Shown piece by piece: positions 652-14,655 of a DNA stretch of 64,000 nucleotides; positions within the stretch are counted from its first letter, which is position 1, and each line of letters opens with the position of its first letter. The notes below the pieces were generated by a model that made no database searches, had not been told where the DNA came from, and worked only from the letters and a program-made list of their open reading frames with translations. Made by a program: the position numbers and the translations under genes. Origin of the DNA: Achromobacter deleyi (GTDB lineage Bacteria > Pseudomonadota > Gammaproteobacteria > Burkholderiales > Burkholderiaceae_B); the NCBI RefSeq assembly GCF_902859705.1, contig NZ_CADIJO010000008.1:124001-188000 (forward strand), read 5' to 3'.

Positions 652-1488
652 CTATCCGGCCGTGGCCGGCGCATCCACGGACTCACCGAATACGCCGCGC
701 CAGGCCTGCGTCAACACCGCGGCCTGTCCATCCGCGACCCACTGCGCGCCGCCCAACGCCATGGCGGCGTACAGGCAGGCATCGCTGACATCGCGCCACA
801 TCGGCGCCAGCCATTGTTCGATTTCACCGTCGTCTTCGATCAGCTCGAAAGCGGCGTCGCCGTCCAGCGCCTGGGCGCGTTCGCGCACCAGGGTGTGTAT
901 CAGCAGAAAGCCGGCGTGGATGGGCGAACGTTGCTTGTCGAGGCGGCGCGTGGCCGAGAGCACGCCGTCCCAGGCTTGCAGGGCGCCATCGGTTTCGGGC
1001 GCGGCGCCGGAAGGCGATCCGGACGACGTATCGGCGTCGGAGGCGTACCCGGACGGCGCGGCGCCATCATCAGCGGACCAACGCATCCAGGCGCGGTCCC
1101 AGGCCCGCCACGCCTGCGGCGGCACGCCGGCCGCAAGTTGCTCGGCCTGCGGGCGCGACAGGTTGCGTATCTGCTCAAGCAGGCTGACCACCGCCCCGCC
1201 CTGCGGGCCGAACAACGTCGAGACGGGCAATTCCTCGAGCAGTTCGATCGCGGCGGCGCGCCAGTAGCCAGGCTGCGCCACCAGACCCGACATATCGCCC
1301 AACTGCGTCACCCGCACCCGCCACAGACGGCCGGGCCAACGGCTGCCGATCGTGATGCCGGCCACCGACTGCTCGACCACCATCCAGGGCGGCACGGCCT
1401 GCGCCAGGCTGACCTGGTGGCCCGATCGATTCAGGCAAAGCGATGCGTCCGGCGCATCGAACCAGAAGCCCTCGCGTTCAGCCGGCAA
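652..1488 (-). CDS. hypothetical protein coupled to the GntR regulator
   Basis: A 278-residue soluble protein I do not recognise; no signal peptide or membrane segment is visible. The first 120 residues look folded (regular hydrophobic pattern, Trp-rich, 'LGDMSGLVAQPGYWR'). A low-complexity Ser/Gly/Pro linker lies near residues 145-165, and a second, acidic helical part follows ('AFELIEDDGEIEQWL'). The frame starts with TTG one base after the stop of the GntR gene, and an AAGG sequence inside the end of that gene sits about 9 bases upstream. Translation is therefore probably coupled to the regulator. An internal ATG at residue 35 is an alternative start. The coupling hints at a role related to the regulator's locus, but the sequence does not show what. 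Confidence 0.6.
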   Translation of the reverse strand: MPAEREGFWFDAPDASLCLNRSGHQVSLAQAVPPWMVVEQSVAGITIGSRWPGRLWRVRVTQLGDMSGLVAQPGYWRAAAIELLEELPVSTLFGPQGGAVVSLLEQIRNLSRPQAEQLAAGVPPQAWRAWDRAWMRWSADDGAAPSGYASDADTSSGSPSGAAPETDGALQAWDGVLSATRRLDKQRSPIHAGFLLIHTLVRERAQALDGDAAFELIEDDGEIEQWLAPMWRDVSDACLYAAMALGGAQWVADGQAAVLTQAWRGVFGESVDAPATAG

Positions 1489-1489
1489 G

Positions 1490-2146
1490 CTACGCCGCCT
1501 TGCCCGCGCGCTGGGCCTGGATCAATTCCATGACGTTCAGCGTCAGGCGCGTGGTGTGGCTGCGCATGGCCAGGTAAGCCTGTTCCGGCTGGCCGGCCAG
1601 AATGGCTTCGACGATTTTCTGGTGTTCGCGGTGCGAGACCTCGAAGCGGCGCTCGACCCCGGATTGCGCAGCGCGGAACGGCGCCAGCCGTTCGCGCAGG
1701 CTTTCGACGGCAGCAACCAGCGTGGCGTTCTGGGTGCCCTGGCAGATCAATTGGTGAAAGCGCGAGTTCAGTTCCAGATAGGCCTCGGCGTCGCGCTTGT
1801 CGGCCACCGACTCGGCTTCTTCATGCAGCAGTTCCAGCTGACGGCGCTGCATGGCGCTCATGCGCTGCGTGGCAATGCGGCAACAGAGCGATTCCAGTTC
1901 GCACAGGGCTTCGAGCATGTCGGCCAACTGGTCGGGGCTGGTGTTGATGACGACGCCTCCGCGGCGCGGCACCAGTTCGATCAGGCCGCGCGCGTCCAGC
2001 AACCGCAATGCTTCGCGGACGGGTGTGCGCGACACCTGGAATCGTTGCGCCAGGGCGGGCTCTTCGAGCTTCTCACCGGGAGGCAGGAGGCCGGAGATGA
2101 TGTCTTCGGCGAGCTGTTGGCTGATTTGGGCGGCGATGGTTGGCAC
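1490..2146 (-). CDS. GntR-family transcriptional regulator (FadR/FCD subfamily)
   Basis: A ligand-responsive repressor or activator of the FadR-type GntR group. The N-terminal winged helix is clear (residues about 5-70: 'LPPGEKLEEPALAQRF', 'SRTPVREALRLLDARGLI', 'RRGGVVI'), followed by an all-helical FCD effector domain with the metal-site pattern 'LNSRFHQLI' and 'HREHQKIVEAI'. A TTG 33 bases further out keeps the frame open, but I chose GTG at 2146 because AAGGA lies 5 bases upstream. This gives 218 residues, normal for the family. It is transcribed away from the porin at 2481. FadR-type GntR proteins bind short GT...AC palindromes, and such palindromes recur in this locus, so it is the natural candidate to control the catabolic genes. 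That link is inference. Confidence 0.93.
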   Translation of the reverse strand: MPTIAAQISQQLAEDIISGLLPPGEKLEEPALAQRFQVSRTPVREALRLLDARGLIELVPRRGGVVINTSPDQLADMLEALCELESLCCRIATQRMSAMQRRQLELLHEEAESVADKRDAEAYLELNSRFHQLICQGTQNATLVAAVESLRERLAPFRAAQSGVERRFEVSHREHQKIVEAILAGQPEQAYLAMRSHTTRLTLNVMELIQAQRAGKAA

Positions 2147-2480
2147 TAATGTCCTTCGAATCAGTGTCGGGAGTGGCAAAAATTATACACGCCCCCATTT
2201 TTTGGCCTGATTTCTGGCCAAAAATATTTCAACGACGCCATCTGAGTGCATATCCATATTTCTGTACACATTGAGTGAACACGACTTCGTGTCCGCCTTG
2301 GACAGGCACGCCCGTTCCGGCCGTTTCCGTCACGTCTGTCCAGGGATTTCCCTCATCCCAGGCCCGCTTCCCCTACGTTTGATCTAGGAATCCCAAAAAT
2401 CCTTTGTGTATACACATCAATAACAATGTACACTTTGCGAAAATTATGTACCTTAAACAGGACAAGGGGAGACCAACCAC
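2147..2480. promoter_or_regulatory. divergent control region between gntR gene and first porin
   Basis: A 334-base gap, clearly AT-richer than its surroundings, with no convincing gene. It holds a perfect 12-base palindrome (2405-2416), a nearby TGTACA element (2263-2268), two further GTAC-type half elements downstream of the palindrome (about 2427-2432 and 2447-2451), and a good ribosome binding site for the porin (AGGGGAGA at 2465-2472). No clear sigma-70 pair could be fixed by eye. The layout fits a regulator that controls both itself and the porin. Confidence 0.55.
2405..2416. promoter_or_regulatory. palindromic operator TGTGTATACACA (candidate GntR site 1)
   Basis: A perfect 12-base inverted repeat centred on GTATAC, 65 bases before the porin start codon. 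The same core appears as a perfect palindrome at 5267-5280 and 11574-11585, and again at 11660-11665 and 11679-11686. All are in intergenic control regions of this locus. The form agrees with the GT(A)..TAC operators of FadR-type GntR regulators. Which protein binds is inferred. Confidence 0.6.
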
Positions 2481-3638
2481 ATGGCATCGACTTCAGCCGT
2501 TTTCATGGGCGTCACAAGATCGGGTTCGCGCACCGCGCGCCGGCCCCACCGAAGGCGGGTGGCCGCCGCCGTGCTGGCGGCCAGCGCCGCAAGCCCCGCA
2601 CTGGCTCAGCCGGACAGCAGCGTGCAGATCTACGGCTTCATCAAGGAAGACGTGGAAACAGTCAGGCTGTCGGGCAATGGCCGCTCTGAATCCCTGACCC
2701 GGCTGGTGAACGACCTGTCGGTGCTGGGCTTTCGCGGCCAGGAAAGAATCAGCGGCGATCTTGAAGCGTTCTTCCAGATCGAAACCAATCTGCGCATGAC
2801 CGGCACCGGCACGTCGGAAATCTCCGACCGCAATTCCGGGCTGGGGCTGCGCGGCCCGTGGGGCGAGTTCCTGATGGGGCAATGGGAAATGCCGCTGCGC
2901 TTTGCATCGGTCTATACGGTGGACCCGTTCACGGCCGGCGTGTTCGCGTCGAACTCGATCATGGGCAACGGCTTCACCACGGCCGGCAATGGCGTGGCGC
3001 CGCATTCGTTCGACCGGCGCCAGAAAAACCTCTTCCAATACGCCACGCCAAACTGGCGCGGCTTCAGCCTGAAGATGGGCGTGACGCTGCCCGAACGCAT
3101 GCCCACGGGCAATCCCATGGCGTGGTCGGCGCTGGCCAGCTACGCCAGCGGCGACTGGTTCGTGGCCTGGGGCCACGAGTACCACCGCGACTACTTCTAC
3201 GACGGCTCGGCAGACCATGCCGACCGCCTGGCCGTGACCTACACCTTTGGCGGCACCAAGCTGCGCGGCGCCTACGAACGCCTGCGCTACCAGCCTGCCC
3301 CGGGGCAGTCGGTGTATCGCGATGCCTGGCAACTGGCCGCCACCCAGAGCTTCGGGCCACATCAATTGCGCGCGTCCTACACCTACGGCGCCGACGCGCA
3401 CGGGGACACCACCAAGGCAGTGGGCGGCATCGGCGTGCCGGGCTCGGGGTCCGGCGCCTGGCAGATCTCGCTGGGCTACGGCTACACGCTGTCCAAGCGC
3501 ACCGAGGTCTGGACGTCGTTCACGCGGCTGGTGAACGGCGAGACCGCTCGCTACAACCTGTCCGGCAATCCGCTGCCGCAACTGACGGCGGGCGACGCCG
3601 CGACCGCTTTCGGGGTGGGCATCACGCACAAGTTCTGA
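2481..3638 (+). CDS. outer-membrane porin (Porin_4 type)
   Basis: A 385-residue general porin of the betaproteobacterial 16-strand type. It begins with a basic stretch and hydrophobic segment ending in 'ASPALAQ', a signal peptide cut near residue 42, followed by 'SSVQIYGFIKEDVE', the typical first strand. It closes with alternating strands and a C-terminal Phe ('GVGITHKF'), the outer-membrane insertion signal. The ATG at 2481 has AGGGGAGA 8 bases upstream; an internal ATG at residue 9 would give a shorter signal peptide. It is first in a tandem with the VOC gene 50 bases downstream and sits behind a palindromic operator. It probably admits the small organic substrate of the locus. Porins of this family are weakly selective, so the substrate cannot be read from sequence. 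Confidence 0.92.
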   Translation: MASTSAVFMGVTRSGSRTARRPHRRRVAAAVLAASAASPALAQPDSSVQIYGFIKEDVETVRLSGNGRSESLTRLVNDLSVLGFRGQERISGDLEAFFQIETNLRMTGTGTSEISDRNSGLGLRGPWGEFLMGQWEMPLRFASVYTVDPFTAGVFASNSIMGNGFTTAGNGVAPHSFDRRQKNLFQYATPNWRGFSLKMGVTLPERMPTGNPMAWSALASYASGDWFVAWGHEYHRDYFYDGSADHADRLAVTYTFGGTKLRGAYERLRYQPAPGQSVYRDAWQLAATQSFGPHQLRASYTYGADAHGDTTKAVGGIGVPGSGSGAWQISLGYGYTLSKRTEVWTSFTRLVNGETARYNLSGNPLPQLTAGDAATAFGVGITHKF

Positions 3639-3688
3639 TGCCGCCCGCCACCGCTTTCATCCACCCGGTTCCAACCAGGAGCATCTCC

Positions 3689-4162
3689 ATGAGCAACAAA
3701 CTGCGCCACATCGCCCTGTCCGTGCCCGACCCCTGGGCCGCCGCCGAGTTCTATCAGAACGCATTCGGCTTTCGCAAGGTCGGCGAAACGGATTCGTCGC
3801 TGGCGCGCGGCGTGTACCTTACCGACGGCACCATCAGCATCGCGCTGCTGAACTACAAGAGCGACCACGCGGCGGGCGAAGACCGCGGCAAGGATTTCGT
3901 CGGCCTGCACCATATCGGCGTCTGGGTCGAAGATATCGCCGAAGCCCGCAAGACGGTCGAGGCCGCGGGCGGCAACTACTACATGGGCGAGGTGCCGGTG
4001 AAGGGCAACATCTTCTATGAAGTGAAGTACCGCGACCCGAACGGCATCATCATCGACCTGACCGACCACGGCTGGGGCGGCGCGTCCCGCGCGGGCGGTG
4101 ATGGCGATGCGGGCCCGGCCCTGCGCAACCCCGACCTGAAAGCCGATCGCAACGGTCTTTGA
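3689..4162 (+). CDS. VOC superfamily protein (glyoxalase/dioxygenase fold)
   Basis: A 157-residue single VOC module: opening strand 'LRHIALSVPDP' with His7, 'FYQNAFGFRKVG', a second half starting 'GLHHIGVWVED' (His74/75), and the closing 'EVKYRDPNGIIIDL'. In metal-dependent VOC enzymes the last ligand is usually Glu in 'DPDGN..E'. Here the equivalent residue is Asp123, so either metal binding uses Asp or the protein is not a typical dioxygenase. The frame stays open far upstream through the porin gene, but AGGAG at 3677-3681, 7 bases before the ATG, fixes the start. It follows the porin by 50 bases and is probably co-transcribed. Isomerase, lyase, dioxygenase or binding roles are all possible. 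Confidence 0.85.
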   Translation: MSNKLRHIALSVPDPWAAAEFYQNAFGFRKVGETDSSLARGVYLTDGTISIALLNYKSDHAAGEDRGKDFVGLHHIGVWVEDIAEARKTVEAAGGNYYMGEVPVKGNIFYEVKYRDPNGIIIDLTDHGWGGASRAGGDGDAGPALRNPDLKADRNGL

Positions 4163-4176
4163 GGCCACGCTTGCGC

Positions 4177-4201
4177 GGCGATGCCCCGCCGGGGCATCGC
4201 C
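4177..4201. terminator. hairpin between convergent genes
   Basis: An 11-base perfect stem (GGCGATGCCCC / GGGGCATCGCC) with a 3-base loop lies between the VOC stop and the stop of the convergent dehydrogenase. There is no U-tract on either strand, so it may be a weak or factor-assisted bidirectional terminator. Confidence 0.4.
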
Positions 4202-4217
4202 GGTTGCCTGCCTGCAA

Positions 4218-5192
4218 TCAGGCGGGCAAGCGAACGGGATGCGCGGGCGCGCCCCGCTCGAACCAGCCGTCCAGGTTGCTGGCCAGCGCCGCATGCTGCG
4301 CAATGCGCGTTTCCGGCGAACGGCCCGCCAGGTGCGGCGTCAGGATGACCTGATCCATCGTGCGCAAGGCTTGCGGCACGACAGGCTCTGTTTCCAACAC
4401 ATCCAGCGCGGCTCCGGCGATGACGCCACGCGCCAACGCGTCGATCAGTGCGTCGGTATCCACGACCGTGCCGCGCGACACATTGACCAGAAAGCCGGCC
4501 GGCCCCAGCGCCTGCAACACACTGGCATTCACCAGGTGATGCGTCTGCGGGCCGCCCGGGCACGTCAAAGCCAGCACGTCCGACGCGGCGGCCAGCGACA
4601 CCGCGTCGCCATGCGGCACGTAGCCGTCGCCGCCCTGCGTGCCTTCATGCCGAAGATAGGCCACCTGCATGCCCACCGCCGCCCCCAGCCTGGCGAGCCG
4701 GTGGCCGATATTGCCCAGGCCCACGATGCCCAGCGTTTTACCGCGCAGGCCGGGCCGCGCGGCGCGCAGGGTTTCCCAACCGCCGGCCTTGACGCCGCGG
4801 TCCAGCGCCGGGATGCCGCGCGCCAGCGCCAGCATGAGGGTCAGCGCGTGGTCGGCCACGACCTGGCCGTTCGCGTCGGGCGCGTGGCAGACGCGTACCT
4901 GCCGTGCCTGCGCGGCCTGCAGGTCGATTTTCTCGTAGCCAGCGCCAAAGCTTGCCACCAGCTGCAGCGCGGGCAGCGTGGCCAGCTCGTCGGCGCTGAG
5001 CCCGGTCGAGCCATTGGTGACCACCGCCCGTGCACGGGCGCGGACGTCGGCGTCGGCCTGCGCCCAGGGGGTCACGTGGTAGCGGGGGGCCACGGCGGCC
5101 AGCCAGTCCGCGTCCAGCGGCAGCCGGGTCAGCACGTGCAGCGGGCCGGCGTGGCCGGCGTCGGTGTTCGGGTTTTTCGGGGTTCCGTTCAT
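4218..5192 (-). CDS. D-isomer-specific 2-hydroxyacid dehydrogenase
   Basis: An NAD(P)-dependent 2-hydroxyacid dehydrogenase of the hydroxypyruvate/glyoxylate reductase type, 324 residues. The Rossmann motif 'GLGNIG' is at 158-163. The catalytic set is complete: Arg240 in 'VNVSRGTVVD', Glu269 in 'LETEP', His287 in 'TPHLAG'. The frame extends to a TTG at 5246, but the ATG at 5192 follows a GAGGAGG sequence (11 bases away) and gives the family length. It is the only enzyme of the locus on the minus strand and diverges from the FAH operon across an operator palindrome. It would interconvert a 2-keto acid and a D-2-hydroxy acid, fitting pathway intermediates such as hydroxypyruvate or related keto acids. 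The exact substrate is not visible. Confidence 0.9.
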   Translation of the reverse strand: MNGTPKNPNTDAGHAGPLHVLTRLPLDADWLAAVAPRYHVTPWAQADADVRARARAVVTNGSTGLSADELATLPALQLVASFGAGYEKIDLQAAQARQVRVCHAPDANGQVVADHALTLMLALARGIPALDRGVKAGGWETLRAARPGLRGKTLGIVGLGNIGHRLARLGAAVGMQVAYLRHEGTQGGDGYVPHGDAVSLAAASDVLALTCPGGPQTHHLVNASVLQALGPAGFLVNVSRGTVVDTDALIDALARGVIAGAALDVLETEPVVPQALRTMDQVILTPHLAGRSPETRIAQHAALASNLDGWFERGAPAHPVRLPA

Positions 5193-5263
5193 GACGGCGC
5201 TTGCCTCCTCAGGGGGTGAAACGGGGGTGAAACGATGAGGGGGCAAAAATTATCACAAACCCT

Positions 5264-5292
5264 TTGACGTGTATACACGTAAGCTTTAAAGT
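5264..5292 (+). promoter_or_regulatory. promoter of FAH operon with operator palindrome in the spacer
   Basis: A -35-like TTGACG (5264-5269) and a -10-like TAAAGT (5287-5292) are separated by 17 bases. The spacer is largely filled by a perfect 14-base palindrome, ACGTGTATACACGT (5267-5280). This is the most extended copy of the GTATAC element in the locus. A repressor bound here would directly block RNA polymerase. It also lies 75 bases upstream of the divergent dehydrogenase, so it could control both directions. Confidence 0.6.
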
Positions 5293-5361
5293 ATTCACAA
5301 AGGCGGTAGTGAGAACACGTAGACCGCCGCTTCACCTCATCATCACAACAAGGAGATCCCC

Positions 5362-6288
5362 GTGATCTGGCACGGCCTAGCAACCTATGAACTGAACGGC
5401 GTCCAACAGCCCGGCCTGGTGGTCGACAACACGCTCTATGACCTGGCGCAACTGGCCCGTGCCAGCCAGGCCGGGCAGACCGGCGGCCTGCCCGCCGTGG
5501 ACGGCCTGCTGGACGACTGGGATGCCGCCGCCCCGCGCCTGGCGTCGCTGGCCGAGCAGGCTCGCGGCCTGGCCGCCGAAGGCCGCGTGGCCGCCATCGA
5601 CGGCGCGGCCTACGCCATTCCCTATCGCCCGCGGCGCATCTTCGGGGTGGCCTCCAACTTCTACGAACACGCCGACGAAATGGGCACGCAGCTCGCCGCC
5701 CGCGCCGAAAGCCAGCCCTACGTCTTCATGAAGGCGCAGAGCAGCGTCATTCCCACCCAGGCCACGGTGCTGATGCCCCCGGAAACCGAAAAACTGGACT
5801 GGGAAGTGGAGCTGGGCGTGGTCATCGGCAAGACCTGCCGCCATGTGTCGGTGGAAGACGCGCTGTCGGTCATTGCCGCCTACACGGTCTTCAACGACAT
5901 CAGCGCCCGCGACCTCAACCGCCGCACCGACTACCCCTTCAAGCACGACTGGTTTCGCGGCAAAAGCTTCGACACGTTCGGGCCGATGGGGCCATGGCTG
6001 GTGCCGGCCGGCTGCATCGCCGATCCGCAGAACCTGCGCATGACGCTGAGCGTCAATGGCGAATCCATGCAGGACGGCAACACCTCGCAGATGATCTTTT
6101 CGGTGGCCGAGCAGATCGCCTACCTGTCGCGCATCCTGACGCTGCAACCCGGTGACCTGATTGCCACGGGCACCCCGGACGGTGTGGGCATGGGCCGCGG
6201 CGTGTATCTCAAGCCTGGCGATACGATGACGGCCTGGGTAGAAGGCATCGGCACCATCGAGAACCCGGTGGCCCTGGAAAGCCGGTAG
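5362..6288 (+). CDS. fumarylacetoacetate hydrolase (FAH) family protein
   Basis: A 308-residue FAH-fold enzyme. This family hydrolyses or decarboxylates 2,4-diketo or acylpyruvate-type intermediates using a divalent metal. The metal-binding set is present: Glu148 and Glu150 in 'WEVELGVVIGK', and Asp179 in 'FNDISARD'. The late signature 'TGTPDGVG' is also present. The GTG start has AAGGAG 6-7 bases upstream. It is the first gene of a tight run (FAH, VOC, esterase, DapA-like lyase, nitroreductase, Bug receptor). In aromatic catabolism such enzymes act after ring cleavage (acylpyruvate hydrolase, 4-oxalocrotonate decarboxylase, 2-hydroxyhepta-2,4-diene-dioate isomerase). In sugar-acid pathways they cleave 2,4-diketo-3-deoxy acids. 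Sequence alone does not choose. Confidence 0.92.
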   Translation: MIWHGLATYELNGVQQPGLVVDNTLYDLAQLARASQAGQTGGLPAVDGLLDDWDAAAPRLASLAEQARGLAAEGRVAAIDGAAYAIPYRPRRIFGVASNFYEHADEMGTQLAARAESQPYVFMKAQSSVIPTQATVLMPPETEKLDWEVELGVVIGKTCRHVSVEDALSVIAAYTVFNDISARDLNRRTDYPFKHDWFRGKSFDTFGPMGPWLVPAGCIADPQNLRMTLSVNGESMQDGNTSQMIFSVAEQIAYLSRILTLQPGDLIATGTPDGVGMGRGVYLKPGDTMTAWVEGIGTIENPVALESR

Positions 6289-6341
6289 CTTGCTACGCAA
6301 CCTGATAACGACGGGGCCAACAGCCCCGCGAGGAGACAACC

Positions 6342-6935
6342 GTGAATGCCGCAGAAACAAAGGCCATCGCACCCATCCGGACCCGCAAGCTCGGGCACCT
6401 GGTGCTGATGGTGCGCGACCTGGAAGCCTCGACCCGCTTCTACACCGAGGTGATGGGCCTGAAGATATCGGACCGCATCGCCGACCAGATGGTCTTCCTG
6501 CGCGCCGGGCAAGACCACCATGACCTGGCCCTGTCGCGCCTGCCGGCCGACGCCCCCGACCGCGACGACCTGCCGCGCTACACCCGCCCCGGGCTGGAGC
6601 ATTTCTCGTACTACGTGGAATCGCTGGACGAAATGAAGCGCGCGGTGGACGTGGCGCGCGCGCTGGGCGTAGAGATCGAGCGCGGCATCGGGCAGCACGG
6701 CCCAGGCAGCAACTGGTTCCTGGTGTTCAAGGACCCGGACGGCAACAACGTCGAGATCTACACCGACATGGAGCAGATACCGACCAGCGCCGAACACGAA
6801 CCGCAGACCTGGGCCCGCGACCTCGAATCGTTCGACCGGCACCGCCTGGCGCATTTCGTGGTGCAGCCGTCGCCGGCGATTCTGGCGGCCAAGGAAGGCC
6901 GGCCCGCGCCGGGCAAGAAAGACAAGCCCGAATGA
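6342..6935 (+). CDS. VOC-family metalloenzyme, candidate extradiol dioxygenase
   Basis: A 197-residue single VOC module with an intact 2-His-1-Glu set: His19 in 'KLGHLVLMVRD', His87 in 'GLEHFSYYV', Glu138 in 'DPDGNNVEIY'. This is the iron-ligand pattern of extradiol ring-cleaving dioxygenases and of other metal VOC enzymes. A C-terminal tail of about 45 residues, ending in a Lys/Pro-rich stretch, continues past the fold. The GTG start has GAGGAG about 8 bases upstream. It lies between an FAH-family hydrolase and an esterase in the same operon. A ring-cleaving or C-C lyase step feeding the FAH enzyme is a reasonable reading, but glyoxalase or fosfomycin-resistance-type chemistry cannot be excluded. 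Confidence 0.87.
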   Translation: MNAAETKAIAPIRTRKLGHLVLMVRDLEASTRFYTEVMGLKISDRIADQMVFLRAGQDHHDLALSRLPADAPDRDDLPRYTRPGLEHFSYYVESLDEMKRAVDVARALGVEIERGIGQHGPGSNWFLVFKDPDGNNVEIYTDMEQIPTSAEHEPQTWARDLESFDRHRLAHFVVQPSPAILAAKEGRPAPGKKDKPE

Positions 6936-6948
6936 GCCGAGGCGCGCG

Positions 6949-7923
6949 ATGACATTCCCCTTCCCGCACGCGCCGTTTCCCGGGCTGGACGACGCGCAGC
7001 GTACCGCCATGCTGACCCTGGGCCCGACCTGGGCCAGCGACATCCAGGGCAACCGGCGCCAGGTCTGCGAGATCTACGACGCCGTCCATGATGGCCTGCC
7101 CGCGGACGGCCTGCATACATTGCCCGCGCAGGCGTATGGCGACGACCCGCGCCAGCAGCTTGACCTATACCTGCCGGCCGCAGCCGACGGCGCCGCGCGG
7201 CCCATCGTGGCCTTCGTGCATGGCGGCGCGTTCCTGCGCGGCAGCAAGGACGCCACGCCGCACATCTATGCCAACGTGCCCAGGCTGTTCGCACGCGCCG
7301 GCTGCGTCGGCGTCAACGTCGAATACCGCCTGGCGCCGCAAGCGCCCTACCCGGCCGGCGCCGACGACGTGGCGGCGGCGGTGGACTGGCTGCGCAGGCA
7401 TGCCGCGGCCTGGGGCGGCGACCCGCGGCGCATCGTGCTGATCGGCCATTCGGCCGGCGGCAGCCACGTCGCCACCTTCCTGACCGACCCGCGCTACCGT
7501 GGCCAGGCGGATGGCGTGGCCGGCGCGGCGCTGATCAGCGCCCGCCTGGAAGCCGACACCCTGCCCGGCAACCCCAACGCCGCCGGCGTGGTGGCCTATT
7601 ACGGCCCGGACCCCGCGTTGCAGCGGCGCCATGCCCCCATGGCGCACGCCGAGGCCATGGCCGTGCCGCTGCTGATCGCGATCGCCGAATACGAAAACCC
7701 TTACCTGGATCGCTACGCGCTGCAGTACGCGGCGCGCGTCGCCGCCGCCGGGCGGATGCCTCGCATCGTCCAGGTGCCCGGACACAACCACACATCCGTG
7801 GTGGCGCACCTGGGCAGCGCCGACGGCGCCTTTGCCGCCGCGCTGCTGGATTTTGTTGCCACGCATGCCGGCCCCTTGCCCATCACCGCCCCCGCTGCCC
7901 CGGCGCCGGGCCGCTCATCCTGA
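6949..7923 (+). CDS. alpha/beta hydrolase, HSL/carboxylesterase type
   Basis: A 324-residue cytosolic esterase of the hormone-sensitive-lipase group. The oxyanion-hole motif HGG is at 91-93. The nucleophile elbow 'GHSAGG' has Ser168. The acid is probably Glu247 in 'AIAEYENP', and the base is His279 or His281 in 'PGHNHTS'. It starts 13 bases after the VOC gene. Spacing to the next gene is only 10 bases, so it sits inside one operon. It probably opens an ester or lactone in the pathway, possibly releasing the compound that later enzymes cleave. The Ala/Pro-rich C-terminal tail has no recognised function. Confidence 0.88.
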   Translation: MTFPFPHAPFPGLDDAQRTAMLTLGPTWASDIQGNRRQVCEIYDAVHDGLPADGLHTLPAQAYGDDPRQQLDLYLPAAADGAARPIVAFVHGGAFLRGSKDATPHIYANVPRLFARAGCVGVNVEYRLAPQAPYPAGADDVAAAVDWLRRHAAAWGGDPRRIVLIGHSAGGSHVATFLTDPRYRGQADGVAGAALISARLEADTLPGNPNAAGVVAYYGPDPALQRRHAPMAHAEAMAVPLLIAIAEYENPYLDRYALQYAARVAAAGRMPRIVQVPGHNHTSVVAHLGSADGAFAAALLDFVATHAGPLPITAPAAPAPGRSS

Positions 7924-7933
7924 GGAACCTTCC

Positions 7934-8833
7934 ATGTCACATCCTTCGCTGCGCGGCGTGTTCGCGCCCGTGGTCAGTCCGTTTCGCGCGGACGCTTCAC
8001 TGAACCTGCCCGCGTTCGTCGCGCACTGCAAGCAACTGGTCGCCGATGGCGCCGGCCTGGCGATTTCCGGCACCAACAGCGAGGCCTGCTCGGAAACCTT
8101 TGACGAACGCATGTCGCTGGTCGATGCCGTGATCGACGCGGGCATCGCCCCCGACCGCATCCTGGTCGGCACGGGCTGCTGCGCGGTCGACGACGCCGTC
8201 GTCCTGACACGCCATGCCTTGGAACGGGGCTGCGCCGGCACGCTGGTGCTACCGCCCTACTTCTTCAAGAACGTGCAGGAAGACGGCGTGTTTGCCTATT
8301 ACCGGCAATTGATCGAGCGGGTGGACAACCCCGCCCTGCGCATCGTGCTGTATCACATCCCCGCCGTCTCGGGCGTTGCCATCACGCTGCCGCTGATCGA
8401 ACGGCTGGCGGCGGCGTACCCGCAGCACATCGTCGGCGTGAAAGACAGCTCGGGCGACTGGGACAACCTGACCGCCATGCTGGCGCGTTTTCCGCAGCTG
8501 TCGATTTTCCCGGCATCCGAAGTGCTGATGCTGCGCAGCCTGGAACGGGGCGCGGCGGGCTGCATTTCGGCCACCAACAACATCAATGCACGCGACATTG
8601 CGCTGGCCTACGGCTCACCCGAGCAAGCCACGCGCCTGGGCGACCGCATCACGGCGGTACGCAAGACCGCCGAGCAGTTCCCGATGGTGGCGGCCGTCAA
8701 GCACACCCTGTCGCTGTTGACGGGCGACGACGGCTGGCGCCACGTGCGTGCGCCGCTGGTGCCGCTGGATGCCGACACCGCCGCACAGGTCGAAGCCCGC
8801 ATGCGCGCAGCGTTGCCGGCGCTGCAGGCATGA
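7934..8833 (+). CDS. dihydrodipicolinate synthase/aldolase (DapA) family protein
   Basis: A 299-residue class I aldolase barrel. The Schiff-base lysine is Lys170 in 'VGVKDSSGD', and the conserved Tyr140 sits in 'LYHIPAVSG'. The phosphate/carboxylate-binding loop usually reads GTTGE in true DapA; here it is 'GTNSE' (46-50), so this is more likely a catabolic pyruvate-dependent lyase or dehydratase than lysine biosynthesis. The ATG has AGGAA 6-8 bases upstream. It sits in the middle of the catabolic operon, where it could split a 4-hydroxy-2-oxo acid into pyruvate and an aldehyde. The following nitroreductase-like enzyme could then act on the aldehyde. The assignment to a reaction is inference. 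Confidence 0.9.
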   Translation: MSHPSLRGVFAPVVSPFRADASLNLPAFVAHCKQLVADGAGLAISGTNSEACSETFDERMSLVDAVIDAGIAPDRILVGTGCCAVDDAVVLTRHALERGCAGTLVLPPYFFKNVQEDGVFAYYRQLIERVDNPALRIVLYHIPAVSGVAITLPLIERLAAAYPQHIVGVKDSSGDWDNLTAMLARFPQLSIFPASEVLMLRSLERGAAGCISATNNINARDIALAYGSPEQATRLGDRITAVRKTAEQFPMVAAVKHTLSLLTGDDGWRHVRAPLVPLDADTAAQVEARMRAALPALQA

Positions 8834-8861
8834 CGGCCGGCGTCTGCCAAGGAGACCGCGC

Positions 8862-9446
8862 ATGAACGAATCCAGCACGCTGGATCAGTTGTTCCGCCAG
8901 GCGCGCAGCCACAACGGCTGGCTGCCCCGCGACATCGCCGACGCCGAGCTTCAAGCCCTGTACGAACTGGTGCGCCACGGCCCCACCAGCGCCAACACCA
9001 GCCCCATGCGGCTGGTATTCGTCAAGACTGCCGAGGCCAAGGCCCGGCTGGTGCCGGCGCTGGCGCCCGCCAACGTGGCCAAGGTGCTGGGCGCGTCCGT
9101 CACGGCCATCGTTGCGTACGACAGCGCCTTTCACCAGTGGGGCGAAACGCTGTTTCCGCATCGGCCATCACAGTACGACGCTTATGCGGCGAATGCGGCG
9201 CTGGCCCAGGAAACCGCGCTGCGCAACAGTTCGCTGCAAGGCGGCTACCTGATCCTGGCCGCGCGCGCCCTGGGCCTGGACTGCGGCCCGCTGTCCGGCT
9301 TCGACGCCAACGCGGTGAACCAGGCGTTCTTTGCCGACAGCACCTGGCGCGTGAATTTCCTGTGCAACCTGGGCAAAGGCGATCCCGACAAGCTCTTTGC
9401 GCGCTTGCCGCGGCTGGACTTCGCCCAGGCCTGCCGGATTGCATGA
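8862..9446 (+). CDS. nitroreductase-family flavoprotein, RutE/malonic semialdehyde reductase-like
   Basis: A 194-residue FMN oxidoreductase close in length and layout to RutE/HadB-type proteins. Landmarks are the N-terminal 'DQLFRQARSHNGW', the FMN-binding 'VRHGPTSANTSPMRLVFV', and the C-terminal 'LGLDCGPLSGFD...' followed by 'NFLCNLGKGD'. RutE reduces malonic semialdehyde to 3-hydroxypropionate in pyrimidine breakdown. No other rut genes are present here, so the enzyme probably reduces another small aldehyde or an electrophilic by-product of this pathway. AAGGAG lies 8 bases before the ATG. It is in the same operon, 28 bases after the DapA-like gene. Confidence 0.88.
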   Translation: MNESSTLDQLFRQARSHNGWLPRDIADAELQALYELVRHGPTSANTSPMRLVFVKTAEAKARLVPALAPANVAKVLGASVTAIVAYDSAFHQWGETLFPHRPSQYDAYAANAALAQETALRNSSLQGGYLILAARALGLDCGPLSGFDANAVNQAFFADSTWRVNFLCNLGKGDPDKLFARLPRLDFAQACRIA

Positions 9447-9492
9447 CCGACCCGGCAACGCCGGGCGCATACCTAGAAAACGAGGAGACATC

Positions 9493-10479
9493 ATGACAAC
9501 CCCCATCAACCCGGCCAGGCGGCGCTTCAGCCTGGGCGCGATGACCCTGCTGGCCGGCGCGCCCTTCGTGGCGCGGGCCGAAGACAGCTGGCCCAACCGG
9601 CCCGTCACCATCGTGGTGCCGTTCTCGCCCGGCGGCAACACCGACCTGATCGCGCGCATGATGGCCGAGAAGCTGGGCCAGCGCATCGGCAAGCCGTTCA
9701 TCGTGGACAACCGCGGCGGCGCGGGCGGCCTGATCGCGGCCGAATACGTGGCGCGGGCCAAGGCAGACGGCCAGACCCTGTTCATGTCGACCATGACGCA
9801 GATCGTCACGGCGCCCATGACCAACAAGATCCGCTACGATCCCATCCGCGATTTCGCGCCCATCATCAATGTGGGCGGCAACCCGTTCGTGCTGGCGGCC
9901 AGCGCCCGCCACGGCTTCAAGACGCTGGCCGACCTGGTGGATTACGGCCGCGCCAACCCCGGCGCCCTGAACGTGGGCCACGCCGGCACCGGCGGGCTGA
10001 CGCACCTGTCGGCGCTGCTCTTCCTGACGCGTGCGGGGGTGCAGGCGACGATGGTGCCGTACCGCGGCGGCGCGCAAGCGCTGGCGGACGTGCTGGCCGG
10101 GCAGATCGACCTGTACAGCGCCAGCGTGTCCGAAGTGCTGCCGCATGCGGCCACCGGCAAGCTGTCGCTGTTGGCGGTGTCCAGCGCCAAGCGGCTGCCG
10201 CAATTGCCCGACCTGCCGGCCATTGCCGAAACCTATCCCGGGCATGTCGTGGAAACCTGGAACGGCCTGGTCGGCCCCACGGGGATGCCCGAAGCGGTGC
10301 TGGCCCGCCTGGCCGACGAGGGCCGCCGCATCGTCGCCGACCCCGCCTTTCGCACGCGGCTGGAAGAAGCCGGCATCACGCCCTATGGCGAACTGCGCGA
10401 CGCCTTCGCCACCCGCATCAAGACGGAACAGGGGCTTTGGCAGCCGGTGATCGAAGCGGCCGGCATCGAGCCTCAGTAG
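9493..10479 (+). CDS. Bug-family tripartite tricarboxylate transporter receptor
   Basis: A 328-residue periplasmic solute-binding protein of the Bug (Bordetella uptake gene)/TctC family. The N-terminus has a twin-arginine-like leader ('RRRFSLG', then a hydrophobic stretch ending 'VARA'). The mature part starts at 'WPNRPVTIVVPFSPGGNTD', the family signature loop that holds the ligand carboxylate. No TctA/TctB membrane partners are encoded nearby, the usual situation for Bug genes in Alcaligenaceae. GAGGAG lies about 7 bases upstream of the ATG. As last gene of the catabolic operon it probably captures the organic acid that the pathway degrades, or reports its presence. Confidence 0.94.
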   Translation: MTTPINPARRRFSLGAMTLLAGAPFVARAEDSWPNRPVTIVVPFSPGGNTDLIARMMAEKLGQRIGKPFIVDNRGGAGGLIAAEYVARAKADGQTLFMSTMTQIVTAPMTNKIRYDPIRDFAPIINVGGNPFVLAASARHGFKTLADLVDYGRANPGALNVGHAGTGGLTHLSALLFLTRAGVQATMVPYRGGAQALADVLAGQIDLYSASVSEVLPHAATGKLSLLAVSSAKRLPQLPDLPAIAETYPGHVVETWNGLVGPTGMPEAVLARLADEGRRIVADPAFRTRLEEAGITPYGELRDAFATRIKTEQGLWQPVIEAAGIEPQ

Positions 10480-11462
10480 CGCATCGCCGCCGCGCCGCCG
10501 CCCGGCGGCGCGGCCACCTCGCGCAGGCAGGCAATGAATGTCTGGCAGGCGGCGCCGGGCTCGCGGTTCAGGCGCAGCGAATAGCCCACGGTGCCGAAGG
10601 CGCCGGTCTCGGGCAGGTTCAGGATGCGCAAGAGGCCGGCATCCGAGAATTGCCGGGCCGCGGCGCGCGGCATCAGCGCCACGTGCGGCGTGTGCAGCAA
10701 CAAGCCGATGTTGGTCAGGATCGACAACGATTCGACAATGTCCGTAGGCAGCGGCAGGCCGGCCCCGCGAAACAGGTGCTCGGCCGCCAGTCGCGCCGGC
10801 GAATCCGGCGTGGGCAGGATCCACGGCGACCCGATCAGCTCGGCCAGGTGCGTGACGCGGTCGGCCGCCGGGCCATAGCCCTTGCCGACCACCACGCACA
10901 AGGCCTCGTCAAACAGCGCATGGTGGCTGAGCGCATGGGCGTTGGCCAGCGGCAGCTCGGGTTCGGGCAGGCGGCCGACGACGATATCCACGTCGCCCGC
11001 GGCCAGCGCCGGAAACAGGTGTGCGGTGGCGCCTTCGCGCACGGTGACCAATACGCCGGGCGCACGCGCCTTCAACATCGCGATCGCGTTGGGCAGCAGG
11101 CGGGCCGATGCCGAGATCAGCGTGCCCACCGTGACGTGGCCGCTGGCGCCCAGGCGGAAATCATTCAGTTCGTCGGTCATGCCGCGCAACTCGGCCATCA
11201 GCAGCTTGACCCGGCGGCCCAGCAGCGCGCCCAGCGCGGTCGGCGCCACGCCACGGTTCGACCGTTCGAACAGCGGGCCGTCGAAACAGGCCTCGAGTTC
11301 CTGGATGACCTTGGTCACCGCCGGTTGCGACAGCCGCAATTCCTGGGCCGCGCCGATCACGGAGCCGGCTTCGAGCACCCGCCCGAAGATCATCAGCTGG
11401 TTCAGCTTCAAACGGCGGATCAGCGACAGGTCATTCAAGGGAAGCGCTTCCGCGGCATGCAT
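10473..11462 (-). CDS. LysR-family transcriptional regulator
   Basis: A 329-residue LysR regulator. The helix-turn-helix is at about residues 15-75 ('LNQLMIFGRVLEAGSVIGAAQELRL', 'SQPAVTKVIQELE'), followed by a full effector domain. The N-terminal layout resembles the PcaQ/GbpR branch, which controls aromatic and galactose-type catabolism. The frame continues to a TTG at 11690, but the ATG at 11462 has AGAGG 8 bases upstream and fits the family. The stop overlaps the end of the Bug gene by 7 bases (tail to tail). It diverges from the second porin across a region with three GTATAC elements, so the locus may integrate two regulators. Confidence 0.92.
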   Translation of the reverse strand: MHAAEALPLNDLSLIRRLKLNQLMIFGRVLEAGSVIGAAQELRLSQPAVTKVIQELEACFDGPLFERSNRGVAPTALGALLGRRVKLLMAELRGMTDELNDFRLGASGHVTVGTLISASARLLPNAIAMLKARAPGVLVTVREGATAHLFPALAAGDVDIVVGRLPEPELPLANAHALSHHALFDEALCVVVGKGYGPAADRVTHLAELIGSPWILPTPDSPARLAAEHLFRGAGLPLPTDIVESLSILTNIGLLLHTPHVALMPRAAARQFSDAGLLRILNLPETGAFGTVGYSLRLNREPGAACQTFIACLREVAAPPGGGAAAMRY

Positions 11463-11573
11463 GGTGGGTTCCTCTTGTCCAAAGCCCGGGGGTACAGGCC
11501 CCGCGGCCCGGCCGCTCGCGGCCTGCCGCGATTCTGGTGCATTCGCCGCCCCGCGCCTATCCAGGAAGGCCCT

Positions 11574-11585
11574 GATGTATACATC
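11574..11585. promoter_or_regulatory. palindromic operator GATGTATACATC (candidate GntR site 3)
   Basis: A perfect 12-base inverted repeat with the GTATAC core shared with 2405-2416 and 5267-5280. It lies 112 bases upstream of the LysR start and 182 bases upstream of the porin start. Bound protein not shown by sequence; a FadR-type GntR regulator is the best candidate. Confidence 0.6.
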
Positions 11586-11659
11586 TTGAAATACGGCCGC
11601 TATAACCAAATCGCCCGTCACTATAAGCAGACAGTTCAATAAACCCATTCCCCCTCTTC

Positions 11660-11686
11660 GTATACTTTTATCAATAAATGTATACA
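11660..11686. promoter_or_regulatory. pair of GTATAC operator cores (candidate GntR sites 4 and 5)
   Basis: GTATAC occurs at 11660-11665 and again inside TGTATACA at 11679-11686, 20 bases apart (about two helical turns). This spacing could let two dimers bind the same face of the DNA, about 80 bases before the second porin. Confidence 0.5.
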
Positions 11687-11766
11687 ACAAAAGTCCAACG
11701 TTGACCCGAGCGACAGGCCCGAACCGCCCAGCGGCCGGACCGGCTCACCGAGGAGGGGAAAGTGCA

Positions 11767-12807
11767 ATGAAGAGGATTTCGGCACTGGCGGCCGTGGTGG
11801 CGCTATGCGCAGGTTCCAGCGTGCAGGCCCAGACCCGCGTCTGGCTGTCCGGCTACGTCGACATGAACATCAAGCACCTGCAGTCGTCCGGCCCCGGCTC
11901 GACGACGCGCATGTCCAGCGGCGGCTTGAACAATTCGCGCTTCAACCTGAGCGGCGTGGAAGAACTGGGCGACGGCAACAAGGCCGTGTTCACGATCGAA
12001 CCCATGTTCTCGGCCAACAACGGCCAGCAGGCCGCGCAGTTTCGCCAATCGTTCGTGGGGCTCAAAGGCGACTGGGGCGAATTGACGCTGGGCCGGCAGT
12101 TCACGCCGTCGTACTGGATCGCCGGCTATGCCGACCCGAGCTGGGCTGCCGAGTTCAGCATGGTCAACAACATGGAATTCTTCTATGCGTCGTACCGGGT
12201 GGACGGCGCGGTGCAGTACAAGACGCCGGCGTTCCATGGCCTCACGGGGCGCCTCATGATGACCAACGGCGAAGGCGGCAGCTCCAAGGCCGGACGCTTC
12301 ATCAGCACCGCCCTCGAATACCGTGAAGGCCCCCTGTTCCTGGGCGTGGCCAGCGAGCAGCAATACACCCGCGACATCTTCCGTTCGTCCGAGGTGCATT
12401 CCTCGCGCGACAACTATTTCTCGGCCGTCTATCGCATCGGTTCGGTCGAACCCACGTTCATCTTCCATACCTATAACGGCTACTACGCCTATCCGCCCTA
12501 TACCGCCTTCAACGCCAGCGGGTGGGACGTCCAACTGGGCGCGCGCTGGAACATCGACGGCCGCAACCGCCTCTACGCCAGCGTGGTGCACCGCCACGAC
12601 GACGACAACAAGAGCCTGTCCAGCGCCAACGGTTTCGTCCTGGGATTCATCCACGGCCTGTCCAAGCGCACCGATCTGTACGCCAGCGTGGCCCATGTGC
12701 AGCATCGCCGCGCCGCGCCCGTGCCGTATCCCGTGACCTTCCAGAACTATCCCAACGCCGGCCAGAACCCGACCGGTTACCAGGTCGGCATCCGCCACGC
12801 CTTCTGA
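11767..12807 (+). CDS. outer-membrane porin (Porin_4 type)
   Basis: A 346-residue trimeric porin. It has a short classical signal peptide ending 'SSVQAQ' (about residue 22), first strand 'VWLSGYVDMNIKHL', the characteristic 'SRFNLSGVEELGDGNKAVFTIEPMF' region with the loop-3 constriction downstream ('RQFTPSYW'), and a terminal Phe ('GIRHAF'). It is the second porin of the locus and differs clearly from the one at 2481. It is followed after 54 bases by the secreted LVIVD-like protein. Both carry the same kind of upstream palindrome, which suggests that two outer-membrane channels are induced together. Confidence 0.93.
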   Translation: MKRISALAAVVALCAGSSVQAQTRVWLSGYVDMNIKHLQSSGPGSTTRMSSGGLNNSRFNLSGVEELGDGNKAVFTIEPMFSANNGQQAAQFRQSFVGLKGDWGELTLGRQFTPSYWIAGYADPSWAAEFSMVNNMEFFYASYRVDGAVQYKTPAFHGLTGRLMMTNGEGGSSKAGRFISTALEYREGPLFLGVASEQQYTRDIFRSSEVHSSRDNYFSAVYRIGSVEPTFIFHTYNGYYAYPPYTAFNASGWDVQLGARWNIDGRNRLYASVVHRHDDDNKSLSSANGFVLGFIHGLSKRTDLYASVAHVQHRRAAPVPYPVTFQNYPNAGQNPTGYQVGIRHAF

Positions 12808-12861
12808 ATGCCCGCCGCCATAGCCGCATCCGGCGAGCGCCCCTGTACCCAAGGAGACTGC

Positions 12862-14655
12862 ATGTCCATTCACCGCCCCCACTGGCCTGTCCGTTTCGCG
12901 GGCCCGGCCTTCGCCTCGCTGTTGCTGGCCGGCGCCGCGCTGCCGGCCTGCGCCCAGACCGCGCCGGCCGCACCGAACAAACCTGCTGCGCCTGCCGCCA
13001 CGCCCGGTACGCCCAACGTGCAGGACCCCTATCTGGCGCAATGGTTGCGCCTGACGCCCGAGCGCCGGCCCGTGCCGCAAAAGCCCGGTGTGGATTACGG
13101 CATGGATCCGGCGACCGGCCAGTTCATCTGGCCCAAGGCCACGCCCGAAGTGCACACCGGGCAGAAATTCCCCGGCGAAATGACAAGCTGGGACAAGCAA
13201 AGCTACGCCAAGAACGTCAAGGTGCTGGCCTTCTACCCCGGCGTGGGCTCGCCTTTCCATGCCTGGAACAACATCGCCGACTTCGAGGGCCGCCGCTACC
13301 TGTATGTGCACGACCGCGACTACCTGCGCATCCTGGATGTCACCGATCCGGCCCACGGCAAGATCGTCTATTCCAAGGGCGGCGTCTGGGGGCCGAAAGG
13401 GTCCAGCGAAAAGTACGATCCGAATACCGTGCAGGACTATCTGGGCGGCGCCACCATCGCCTGGAGCAAGAAGCTGGGCAAGCCGGTGCTGGTTGCCTCG
13501 TTCGAGATCGGCCGCTATGGCCTGATGAACGAAAAGCTGGAGCAGCCTGACAAGGTCGCCGCGCAGCGCCAGTACAACTCGCTCAAGGGCTTCAAGGTCT
13601 TCGTCATGGACGGCCCCTTGCCCAGCCAGTGGCGCCTGATTGCCACCCGCACCACGGATCACCAGCATCCGGACGCGCCGGTCGGCCAGCAGCGCGGGTC
13701 CGGTTCGCTGGATTCGCCGGAGTACTACGGCGGCAAATACATGATCCTGTCGGCCGCGCCGGACGACACCTACGGCCTGACCGAATACCCGAACTACCTG
13801 TATTCGCCCGGCTATCAGGTCTGGGACATGAGCGATCCAGCCGATCCCAAGTTCGTATCGCAGATCGCCGTGCCGGGCCAGATCCTGGGCGACAAGGAAC
13901 ACGAAGAGACCTACCTGATGAATCCGCGGGCGGGCAACCGCACATCGTGGATGGGGTCGCGCAACCCCATCTTCCTGTCGCAGCCGCTGGAAAACGGCGG
14001 CAAGATCGGCTTTGGCGCAATGGGCGGACTGGGGGTGTACGCGTTCGACCTGTCGGACCCGGCCAAGCCCAGGATGCTCAGCGGCGTGAACACGGCGCCC
14101 AGCTTCGCCGGCACCGAATTCGACAACGCCGACGTCAGCCAGTACGCGCGCACCGGCTACGTGTTCGCCAACGGCTACCCGATGAACCGCGACTGCTATG
14201 AACCCTATAAAGACATTTTCGTCATCGACGCCCGCGACCCCTCGCACCTGAAGGTCGCGGCCAAGATGCCGCAACCCGAAGTGCCGGCCGGCGCGCCGTT
14301 CACCAGCTTCTGCCAGAGGGGCGGCAACTTCGGCCCGAAGCGCGCCAATGCCATCGGCCAGCCGGGCCAGTGGCGCCAGGGCATCGTGCCCTACTCGTTC
14401 TACAACGCGGGGGTGCAGATCTTCAACGTAGAAGATCCCGCCAAACCCACCATCGCCGGGTACTTCGTGCCCGCGCTGGCCGATGAATCCGAGCTGCCCG
14501 TCTATACCCTGGGCAAAGGCGTGTTCTCGATCTACACCGAGTACGACCGCAACATCATCTGGGCCTTCACCGAGAACGGCGCGTATGCCTTGTCCACGCC
14601 CTTGCTGGGGGAACCGAAGCTGGGCATGGCCGACAAGCCCTGGCCGGCGCGCTAA
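12862..14655 (+). CDS. secreted LVIVD-repeat-like beta-propeller protein
   Basis: A 597-residue exported protein. It has a signal peptide with a long hydrophobic stretch ending 'LPACAQ', then an Ala/Pro-rich linker. The body carries repeated strands of the form '[Y/V]-x-[V/I]-x-D-[V/I/M]-[T/S]-D-P-A' (for example 'LRILDVTDPAHGK', 'YQVWDMSDPADPK', 'VYAFDLSDPAKPR', 'VQIFNVEDPAKPT'), as in LVIVD beta-propellers. No enzyme motif is recognised. Several His/Asp-rich turns ('TTDHQHPDAP') could bind metal. AAGGAG lies 7 bases before the ATG. It is co-oriented with the second porin and probably the last gene of the locus. Proteins of this shape can be hydrolases, quinoprotein-like enzymes or binding platforms; the role here is unknown. 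Confidence 0.8.
   Translation: MSIHRPHWPVRFAGPAFASLLLAGAALPACAQTAPAAPNKPAAPAATPGTPNVQDPYLAQWLRLTPERRPVPQKPGVDYGMDPATGQFIWPKATPEVHTGQKFPGEMTSWDKQSYAKNVKVLAFYPGVGSPFHAWNNIADFEGRRYLYVHDRDYLRILDVTDPAHGKIVYSKGGVWGPKGSSEKYDPNTVQDYLGGATIAWSKKLGKPVLVASFEIGRYGLMNEKLEQPDKVAAQRQYNSLKGFKVFVMDGPLPSQWRLIATRTTDHQHPDAPVGQQRGSGSLDSPEYYGGKYMILSAAPDDTYGLTEYPNYLYSPGYQVWDMSDPADPKFVSQIAVPGQILGDKEHEETYLMNPRAGNRTSWMGSRNPIFLSQPLENGGKIGFGAMGGLGVYAFDLSDPAKPRMLSGVNTAPSFAGTEFDNADVSQYARTGYVFANGYPMNRDCYEPYKDIFVIDARDPSHLKVAAKMPQPEVPAGAPFTSFCQRGGNFGPKRANAIGQPGQWRQGIVPYSFYNAGVQIFNVEDPAKPTIAGYFVPALADESELPVYTLGKGVFSIYTEYDRNIIWAFTENGAYALSTPLLGEPKLGMADKPWPAR

Follow-up and report, generated by a model that had tools for sequence, protein, structure and literature searches.

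A 64,000-nucleotide stretch of the Achromobacter deleyi genome (contig NZ_CADIJO010000008.1, positions 124,001 to 188,000; referred to here as the window) carries a predicted local catabolic regulon, in which a GntR regulator with an FCD domain very probably represses two porin genes and a catabolic operon headed by an FAH-family hydrolase through paired copies of the palindrome TGTATACA, centred 20 bp apart, and in which a carboxylate would release the repressor. The sites lie in a region of 9.3 kb, within a genome (G000) of 6.81 Mb in 71 contigs. It had been proposed in an original prediction, made from this DNA alone, that one GTATAC palindrome joins three control regions into a GntR regulon. 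All of its palindrome coordinates were verified (2405-2416, 5267-5280 and 11574-11585, with further copies upstream of porin 2, namely GTATAC at 11660-11665 and TGTATACA at 11679-11686), and these palindromes are real and not a product of chance. They are present in the three control regions as proposed; the shared operator unit, however, is not the single palindrome but a tandem pair, GTATAC-N14-GTATAC, whose centres are phased at 20 bp and one member of which is often degenerate. The sites are as follows, by position in the window and with no strand assigned:

2405-2416: operator 1 of the porin-1 promoter region, TGTGTATACACA; its TGTATACA is kept in 3/3 other Achromobacter loci (L019, L020, L070)
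2427-2434: operator 2 of porin 1, TGTACACT, 20 bp past operator 1; TGTACAC is kept in 4/4 Achromobacter loci
5267-5280: operator 1 of the FAH/dehydrogenase region, ACGTGTATACACGT, placed inside a -35/-10 spacer by sequence match and alignment
5290-5297: operator 2 of FAH, AGTATTCA, 20 bp past operator 1 and overlapping the -10 end; AGTAT is invariant in 12/12 loci
11557-11585: third site of the porin-2/LysR region, GATGTATACATC at 11574-11585, whose partner 20 bp earlier, CTATCC, is weak (offset search)
11660-11685: pair GTATAC-N14-GTATAC upstream of porin 2, with 0 mismatches; the only exact pair of the genome

When up to one mismatch is tolerated, three pairs are found in the 6.81 Mb, one in each of the porin-1, FAH and porin-2 control regions. 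The second members at 2408/2428 and 5271/5291 carry one mismatch to GTATAC, both members at 11660/11680 are exact, and the porin-1 register is continued by a weaker TGTACC at 2447. At up to two mismatches the window holds six matches where 0.11 are expected (0/100 shuffles); all are in the three regions, and some adjoin one another in a single register. A control spacing of N17 gave one match, with the same expectation of 0.11. Across the genome, this looser setting gave 19 matches (six in the locus) against 28 for the pattern read backwards, showing that two mismatches are too loose for use. The 20-bp register is also seen when partners are sought at every distance. Among 33 sites, offsets of +20 and -20 scored best of all offsets up to 60 (means of 5.06 and 3.97 of 8; overall mean 2.07), in a profile that counts members of exact pairs twice. 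A further test used 11 representative promoters, picked by hand from the 33 sites so that each promoter was represented roughly once in every genus or lineage. Their best match 20 bp to either side averaged 6.27 of 8, and the maximum of 2000 flank shuffles over offsets 8-60 was 4.45. Both tests were run without loci L087 and L088 and a group of paralogues, which have other spacings.

Single palindromes are far less specific. Six copies of GTATAC occur in the window against 1.54 expected (1/100 shuffles reaches six), the sixth lying outside the regulon region at 44608. In the whole genome 183 copies were counted, with 196 for the backwards-read pattern; GTATAC itself is therefore not over-represented, and what stands out is its concentration in the three control regions. 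The longer TGTATACA occurs 11 times (backwards-read pattern, five), and four of these copies are in this locus. A regulon defined by single TGTATACA sites was rejected, seven of the 11 copies being elsewhere (two on contig C1, three on C3 and one each on C11 and C13). Confinement of the palindrome to the regulon thus fails for the 8-mer (4/11 in the locus) and holds for the pair at up to one mismatch (3/3), and on these sequence counts it is the pair that defines the predicted regulon. The two single sites on C1 (C1:431876 and C1:436245; L029) lie near genes for a xanthine/uracil-permease-family protein, a polysaccharide-deacetylase-like protein and urate oxidase, and probably belong to a separate purine-catabolism regulon, which may, to guess from the name, be HpxS-like. 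On C3, the interval between a second FCD-GntR gene and a gene for a short-chain dehydrogenase holds two sites (C3:209598 and C3:209717; L030) separated by 119 bp, and this regulator is likely self-contained, with its sites set widely apart. For the remaining sites (C11, C13 and the third on C3), the neighbouring genes that were scanned gave no Pfam match or no clear link.

The palindromes are conserved in related genomes, a comparative check named in the original prediction. TGTATACA is at the same place in 12/12 FAH promoters, comprising ten named loci (L019-L028), L070 and the window. The nearest named relatives of the GntR are in Achromobacter sp. UMC71 (the source of L019) and ASV32. In Cupriavidus basilensis (L022) sites lie upstream of FAH, between VOC1 (a glyoxalase-fold gene) and gntR, and between the porins; in C. 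numazuensis (L021), which has two gntR copies, they lie upstream of FAH, porin 2 and VOC1; and in L023-L028 (five records of Pigmentiphaga and its kin and one Alcaligenaceae bacterium) they lie between FAH and gntR. Gene order varies among Achromobacter, Cupriavidus and Pigmentiphaga, yet the sites track the genes through the rearrangements, so that operators are kept upstream of orthologous genes in other genera, as in a coherent regulon. Thirteen other cluster-bearing genomes contain the pair at up to one mismatch 29 times, 24 of them inside the cluster as judged by matching pair coordinates to the cluster loci; one of the 24 (G573, C61:50268) is at the 5' end of a porin-1 relative just beyond the end of L021. 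The five others are in G073 (one), G573 (three) and G574 (one). More distant FAH clusters in L087, L088 and L094 have an FCD GntR of 38-41% identity and an adjoining TTGTATACAA site, which suggests an older FAH-GntR module.

The putative repressor is encoded upstream of porin 1:

1490-2146, minus strand: gntR, FCD-domain GntR regulator of 218 aa, a predicted repressor; PF00392 and PF07729 above cut-offs

Its winged helix (PF00392, 68.8 bits) and FCD domain (PF07729, 97.9 bits) bear out the earlier label FadR-type in its broad sense; within it, membership of either the FadR group or the VanR group, the latter marked by a C-terminal domain of six helices in place of seven, is possible. Residues E29, R40 and R44 align with positions 34, 45 and 49 (counted by eye) of Atu1419, a VanR-type FCD GntR of Agrobacterium fabrum. 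As expected for the family, GT...AC palindromes stand at three nearby control regions and the recognition-helix R40 aligns with Arg45 of Atu1419. N127, H131, H175 and H197 of the FCD domain are invariant in 25 sequences and are also found in Atu1419.

At strict cut-offs, the GntR and the FAH hydrolase were found in the same 4/43 genomes of the genus (up to 70 candidates scored for GntR; all candidates listed for FAH). In wider samples, in which the best candidates per genome were scored and presence is a lower bound, GntR was present in at least 3/399 genomes of the order, all among the FAH matches (at least 5/399; best seven candidates for GntR, five for FAH), and in at least 5/151 genomes of the family, as was FAH (at least 5/151; best 20 and 15), with three genomes in common (G000, G043 and G073). 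The additional GntR genomes of the family sample (G096, G116) carry the paralogue type described below, and the additional FAH genomes (G035, G091) carry a more distant FAH beside a GntR of 38-39% identity. This patchy presence in the genus, together with the recurrence of both genes in Cupriavidus and Pigmentiphaga, makes horizontal spread likely.

The pairs could instead be operators of another regulator, either the LysR protein encoded at 10473-11462 or a different FCD paralogue. One group of sites adjoins the LysR gene, which is transcribed divergently from porin 2, and TGTATACA also occurs beside another FCD gene (L030) and near the urate genes (L029), making more than one reader in the cell probable. 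In six loci (L023-L028), however, the 20.6 kb examined has the pair in the interval from FAH to gntR and lacks a close LysR relative (31-32% identity at best, where there is any), which leaves LysR unlikely as the binder; the pair at up to one mismatch, unlike the 8-mer, is confined to the locus, and GntR and FAH share the same 4/43 genomes. The assignment to another regulator is thus considered distinctly unlikely. Co-occurrence with FAH, the contacts matching Atu1419 and covariation of residue 28 with the operator make it very likely, on sequence grounds, that the GntR at 1490-2146 binds the pairs. The proposal of one GntR regulon over the three control regions is in this way supported by conservation, locus-confined pairs and site-regulator covariation.

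This covariation was seen through a paralogue group without FAH (L075-L078), in which GGTATACC lies upstream of Bug/VOC1 genes, with a GTATTC or GTATCC partner 21 or 41 bp away (by eye). These loci are clusters of GntR, alpha/beta hydrolase, Bug, VOC1 and dehydrogenase genes, and in G043 and G073, two of the genomes concerned, a regulator of the TGTATACA type is present as well. Base-specific contacts have been tabulated for the FadR subfamily at positions 28, 37, 38, 39 and 58 of FadR and at position 59 of AraR (Table 1 of PMC4494728); among these, only position 28 of the helix-turn-helix (HTH) domain separates the main group from the paralogues (mapping by eye). It is Arg in the four paralogues, all with GGTATACC (4/4), and Pro in 13 main-group regulators; elsewhere it is Lys (L079, L080), Gln (L087-L090), Val (L094) or Ile (L030). 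TGTATACA lies close by in 19/21 aligned regulators that lack Arg at this position. Arg at position 28 is described to prefer G/C and to avoid A/T at exactly that operator position (PMC4494728), and the covariation of Arg with GGTATACC, in line with that description, gives independent support for GntR as the binder. Among FCD genes of the genome itself, a sample (30/37 loci) too thin to be used as a general check of the position-28 rule, an HTH-like string was found in 14/30, one of them (L057) evidently spurious, and a stricter pattern caught fewer; within these 14, the five with an upstream palindrome all lack Arg and have T, and the single Arg-bearing gene has no palindrome.

The following features, which bear on how the pairs would act, were identified at the FAH operon and in the gap between gntR and porin 1:

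5264-5292, plus strand: sigma-70-like promoter of the FAH operon, TTGACG-17-TAAAGT; elements largely kept in the 12 aligned loci
2263-2270, no strand assigned: possible degenerate site in the gntR leader, TGTACACA; GTACACA and ATTATACAC are kept in 4/4 aligned Achromobacter loci, and an operator role is possible
2182-2189, no strand assigned: possible -10 element between gntR and porin 1, reading TGTATAAT on the gntR strand

The FAH promoter is the only promoter match between 1400 and 13000, and with 1.3 matches expected by chance its support comes from conservation. Invariant columns number 19/36 in the core and 4/94 outside it, the core bounds having been chosen after the alignment was seen, and identity between three genera is 67-83% inside and 29-38% outside the core. 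The pair straddles this promoter, site 1 filling the spacer and site 2 overlapping the -10 element, and this position points to repression. The conserved island ATTATC, which reads GATAAT on the opposite strand, suggests that the promoter of the divergent dehydrogenase gene is covered as well. Autoregulation of gntR through TGTACACA and TGTATAAT is possible.

Since TGTATACA resembles a -10 element and the FAH promoter overlaps the pair, the conserved TATAC strings might be sigma-70 -10 elements whose conservation serves transcription and not the binding of a repressor. The 20-bp register is constant, however, whereas the promoter seems to move relative to it: at FAH the -35 element precedes site 1, and TTGACA or TTGACT stands between the sites in L079 and L080 (by eye), two loci whose GntR is 54-57% identical and whose pairs are at exactly 20 bp although the TTGAC box lies between them. 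Standard promoters measure 23 bp from hexamer to hexamer, as against 20 bp for the pair, and pairs at up to one mismatch are absent elsewhere in the genome. This explanation is regarded as very improbable. A reading that keeps GntR as the binder, but makes it mainly an activator or limits its repression to part of the three promoters, is unlikely. In its favour, CitO is an FCD-family activator (PMC4746285), and the porin promoters were not located by the sigma-70 scan. The FAH sites nevertheless lie inside a promoter, the usual place for a repressor, and Atu1419 and DgoR are described as repressors with sites in or overlapping promoters (PMC7797058; PMC7674646).

Under the favoured repressor model, GntR dimers would bind TGTATACA palindromes arranged as tandem pairs. 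Twenty base pairs correspond to about two helix turns, which would place two dimers on about one face of the DNA and makes cooperativity likely, so that side-by-side dimers probably assist each other's binding. At the FAH promoter one dimer would sit in the -35/-10 spacer and the other on the -10 element, excluding RNA polymerase from the operon, and the divergent dehydrogenase gene would probably be blocked by the same pair; equivalent pairs would control porin 1 with VOC1, and porin 2. Binding of a carboxylate (the pathway substrate or one of the intermediates) in the metal-type FCD pocket would take the repressor off the DNA, so that both porins, the periplasmic Bug receptor and the hydrolytic and aldolytic enzymes are induced at the same time. 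Repression and release by a carboxylate are proposed because of family precedent and the Asn/three-His pattern common to Atu1419; we infer GntR binding, cooperativity and the nature of effector and substrate, while the positions, pairing and conservation of the sites, the gene co-occurrence and the overlap with the FAH promoter are observed. A bolder form of the model, somewhat less probable than its negation, is that the 20-bp pair is an obligate composite operator on which two dimers dock only at two-turn spacing. The genome has 37 FCD genes, and several of the encoded regulators probably recognise one common 8-bp palindrome; spacing and not sequence would then separate regulons, the duplicated regulator having diverged instead by the position-28 Arg/G change.

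Several observations weigh against the regulon as described. The partner of the 11577 site is weak, the spacing is 22 bp and the pair weaker in L087 and L088, and the paralogues show spacings of 21 or 41 bp; these distances in relatives (21, 22 and 41 bp) are also near two or four DNA turns. The 29 pairs in 13 genomes hardly exceed the backwards control (27), and hence their location is informative, not their number. In L089 and L090, FAH homologues of about 53% identity beside GntRs of 40-41% are without GTATAC; the site of L094 is at the other end of gntR and not upstream of FAH; and L093 (3.9 kb) shows neither GntR nor site. No sigma-70 match was found for the porin promoters in the scan of 1400-13000. 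A single evolutionary event probably accounts for the Arg/G covariation, and L079 and L080 have Lys at position 28 yet keep T, which is unexpected under a simple donor rule. Any of the 37 FCD matches of the genome might read the same core.

Overall, this is a well-supported predicted local regulon of a known regulator family, with an ordinary type of switch and a distinctive strict two-site spacing. Crystal structures of Atu1419 (PDB 6z74, 6za0 and others) and its operator ATGTATACAT, changes to which abolish binding, have been described (PMC7797058). That operator has the same TGTATACA core, equivalents of Glu34 and Arg45 are conserved here (Arg49 by alignment), sites lie in and around promoter elements in both systems, and the FCD Asn/three-His pattern is the same. 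In contrast, the two palindromes of Atu1419 are described as 190 bp apart and bridgeable by a tetramer loop, as against 20 bp here; it controls hydroxycinnamic acid genes, and the sequence match is modest (55 bits). FadR-subfamily regulons (Suvorova et al. 2015, PMC4494728) likewise show TKGT/ACMA boxes, GT-N2-AC spacing (HpxS, HypR, MdcY, PrpR and UxuR), some double sites at near-constant distance and the position-28 specificity rule; their extra boxes are 7-12 nt from the site centre, however, and the passages of that study consulted here do not mention a strict 20-bp pair. DgoR of E. coli is also an FCD repressor acting on two inverted repeats that overlap its own promoter (PMC7674646), with 3 nt between GT and AC (PMC4494728) against 2 here. 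No description of this FCD-GntR clade or of its regulon was found in the literature searched, and the present analysis assigns it a predicted operator. It also brings together, in one predicted induction unit, both porins, the Bug receptor and the catabolic operon, whose substrate could be sought through an inducer screen. The 20-bp pair, specific to this locus yet composed of an 8-mer that other regulators seem to use too, offers a clean test case for spacing as a means of insulating paralogous regulators.

The genes of the locus other than gntR are as follows:

2481-3638, plus strand: porin 1 (PF13609)
3689-4162, plus strand: VOC1, glyoxalase-fold protein downstream of porin 1 (PF00903)
4218-5192, minus strand: D-2-hydroxyacid dehydrogenase, divergent from FAH (PF02826/PF00389)
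5362-6288, plus strand: FAH-family hydrolase, first gene of the operon (PF01557)
6342-6935, plus strand: VOC2, single-domain extradiol-dioxygenase-like protein (PF00903)
6949-7923, plus strand: alpha/beta hydrolase, esterase-like (family and PDB searches)
7934-8833, plus strand: DapA/DHDPS-family lyase or aldolase (PF00701)
8862-9446, plus strand: nitroreductase-fold protein, malonic-semialdehyde-reductase-like (NF003768, 275.6 bits; cut-off 152)
9493-10479, plus strand: Bug/TctC solute-binding receptor (PF03401)
10473-11462, minus strand: LysR regulator (PF00126/PF03466)
11767-12807, plus strand: porin 2 (PF13609)
12808-14655, plus strand: 615-aa protein directly downstream of porin 2, with no Pfam match

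The cluster probably takes up and degrades an acid; family and PDB searches yielded enzyme classes and no pathway. The closest solved relatives of the FAH hydrolase in the PDB search are HpaG/HpcE-type enzymes and L-2,4-diketo-3-deoxyrhamnonate hydrolase. VOC1 has its own operator pair in both Cupriavidus loci, and in the same two loci (L021 and L022) relatives of the 615-aa protein, 79-85% identical, adjoin the porin-2 relative.

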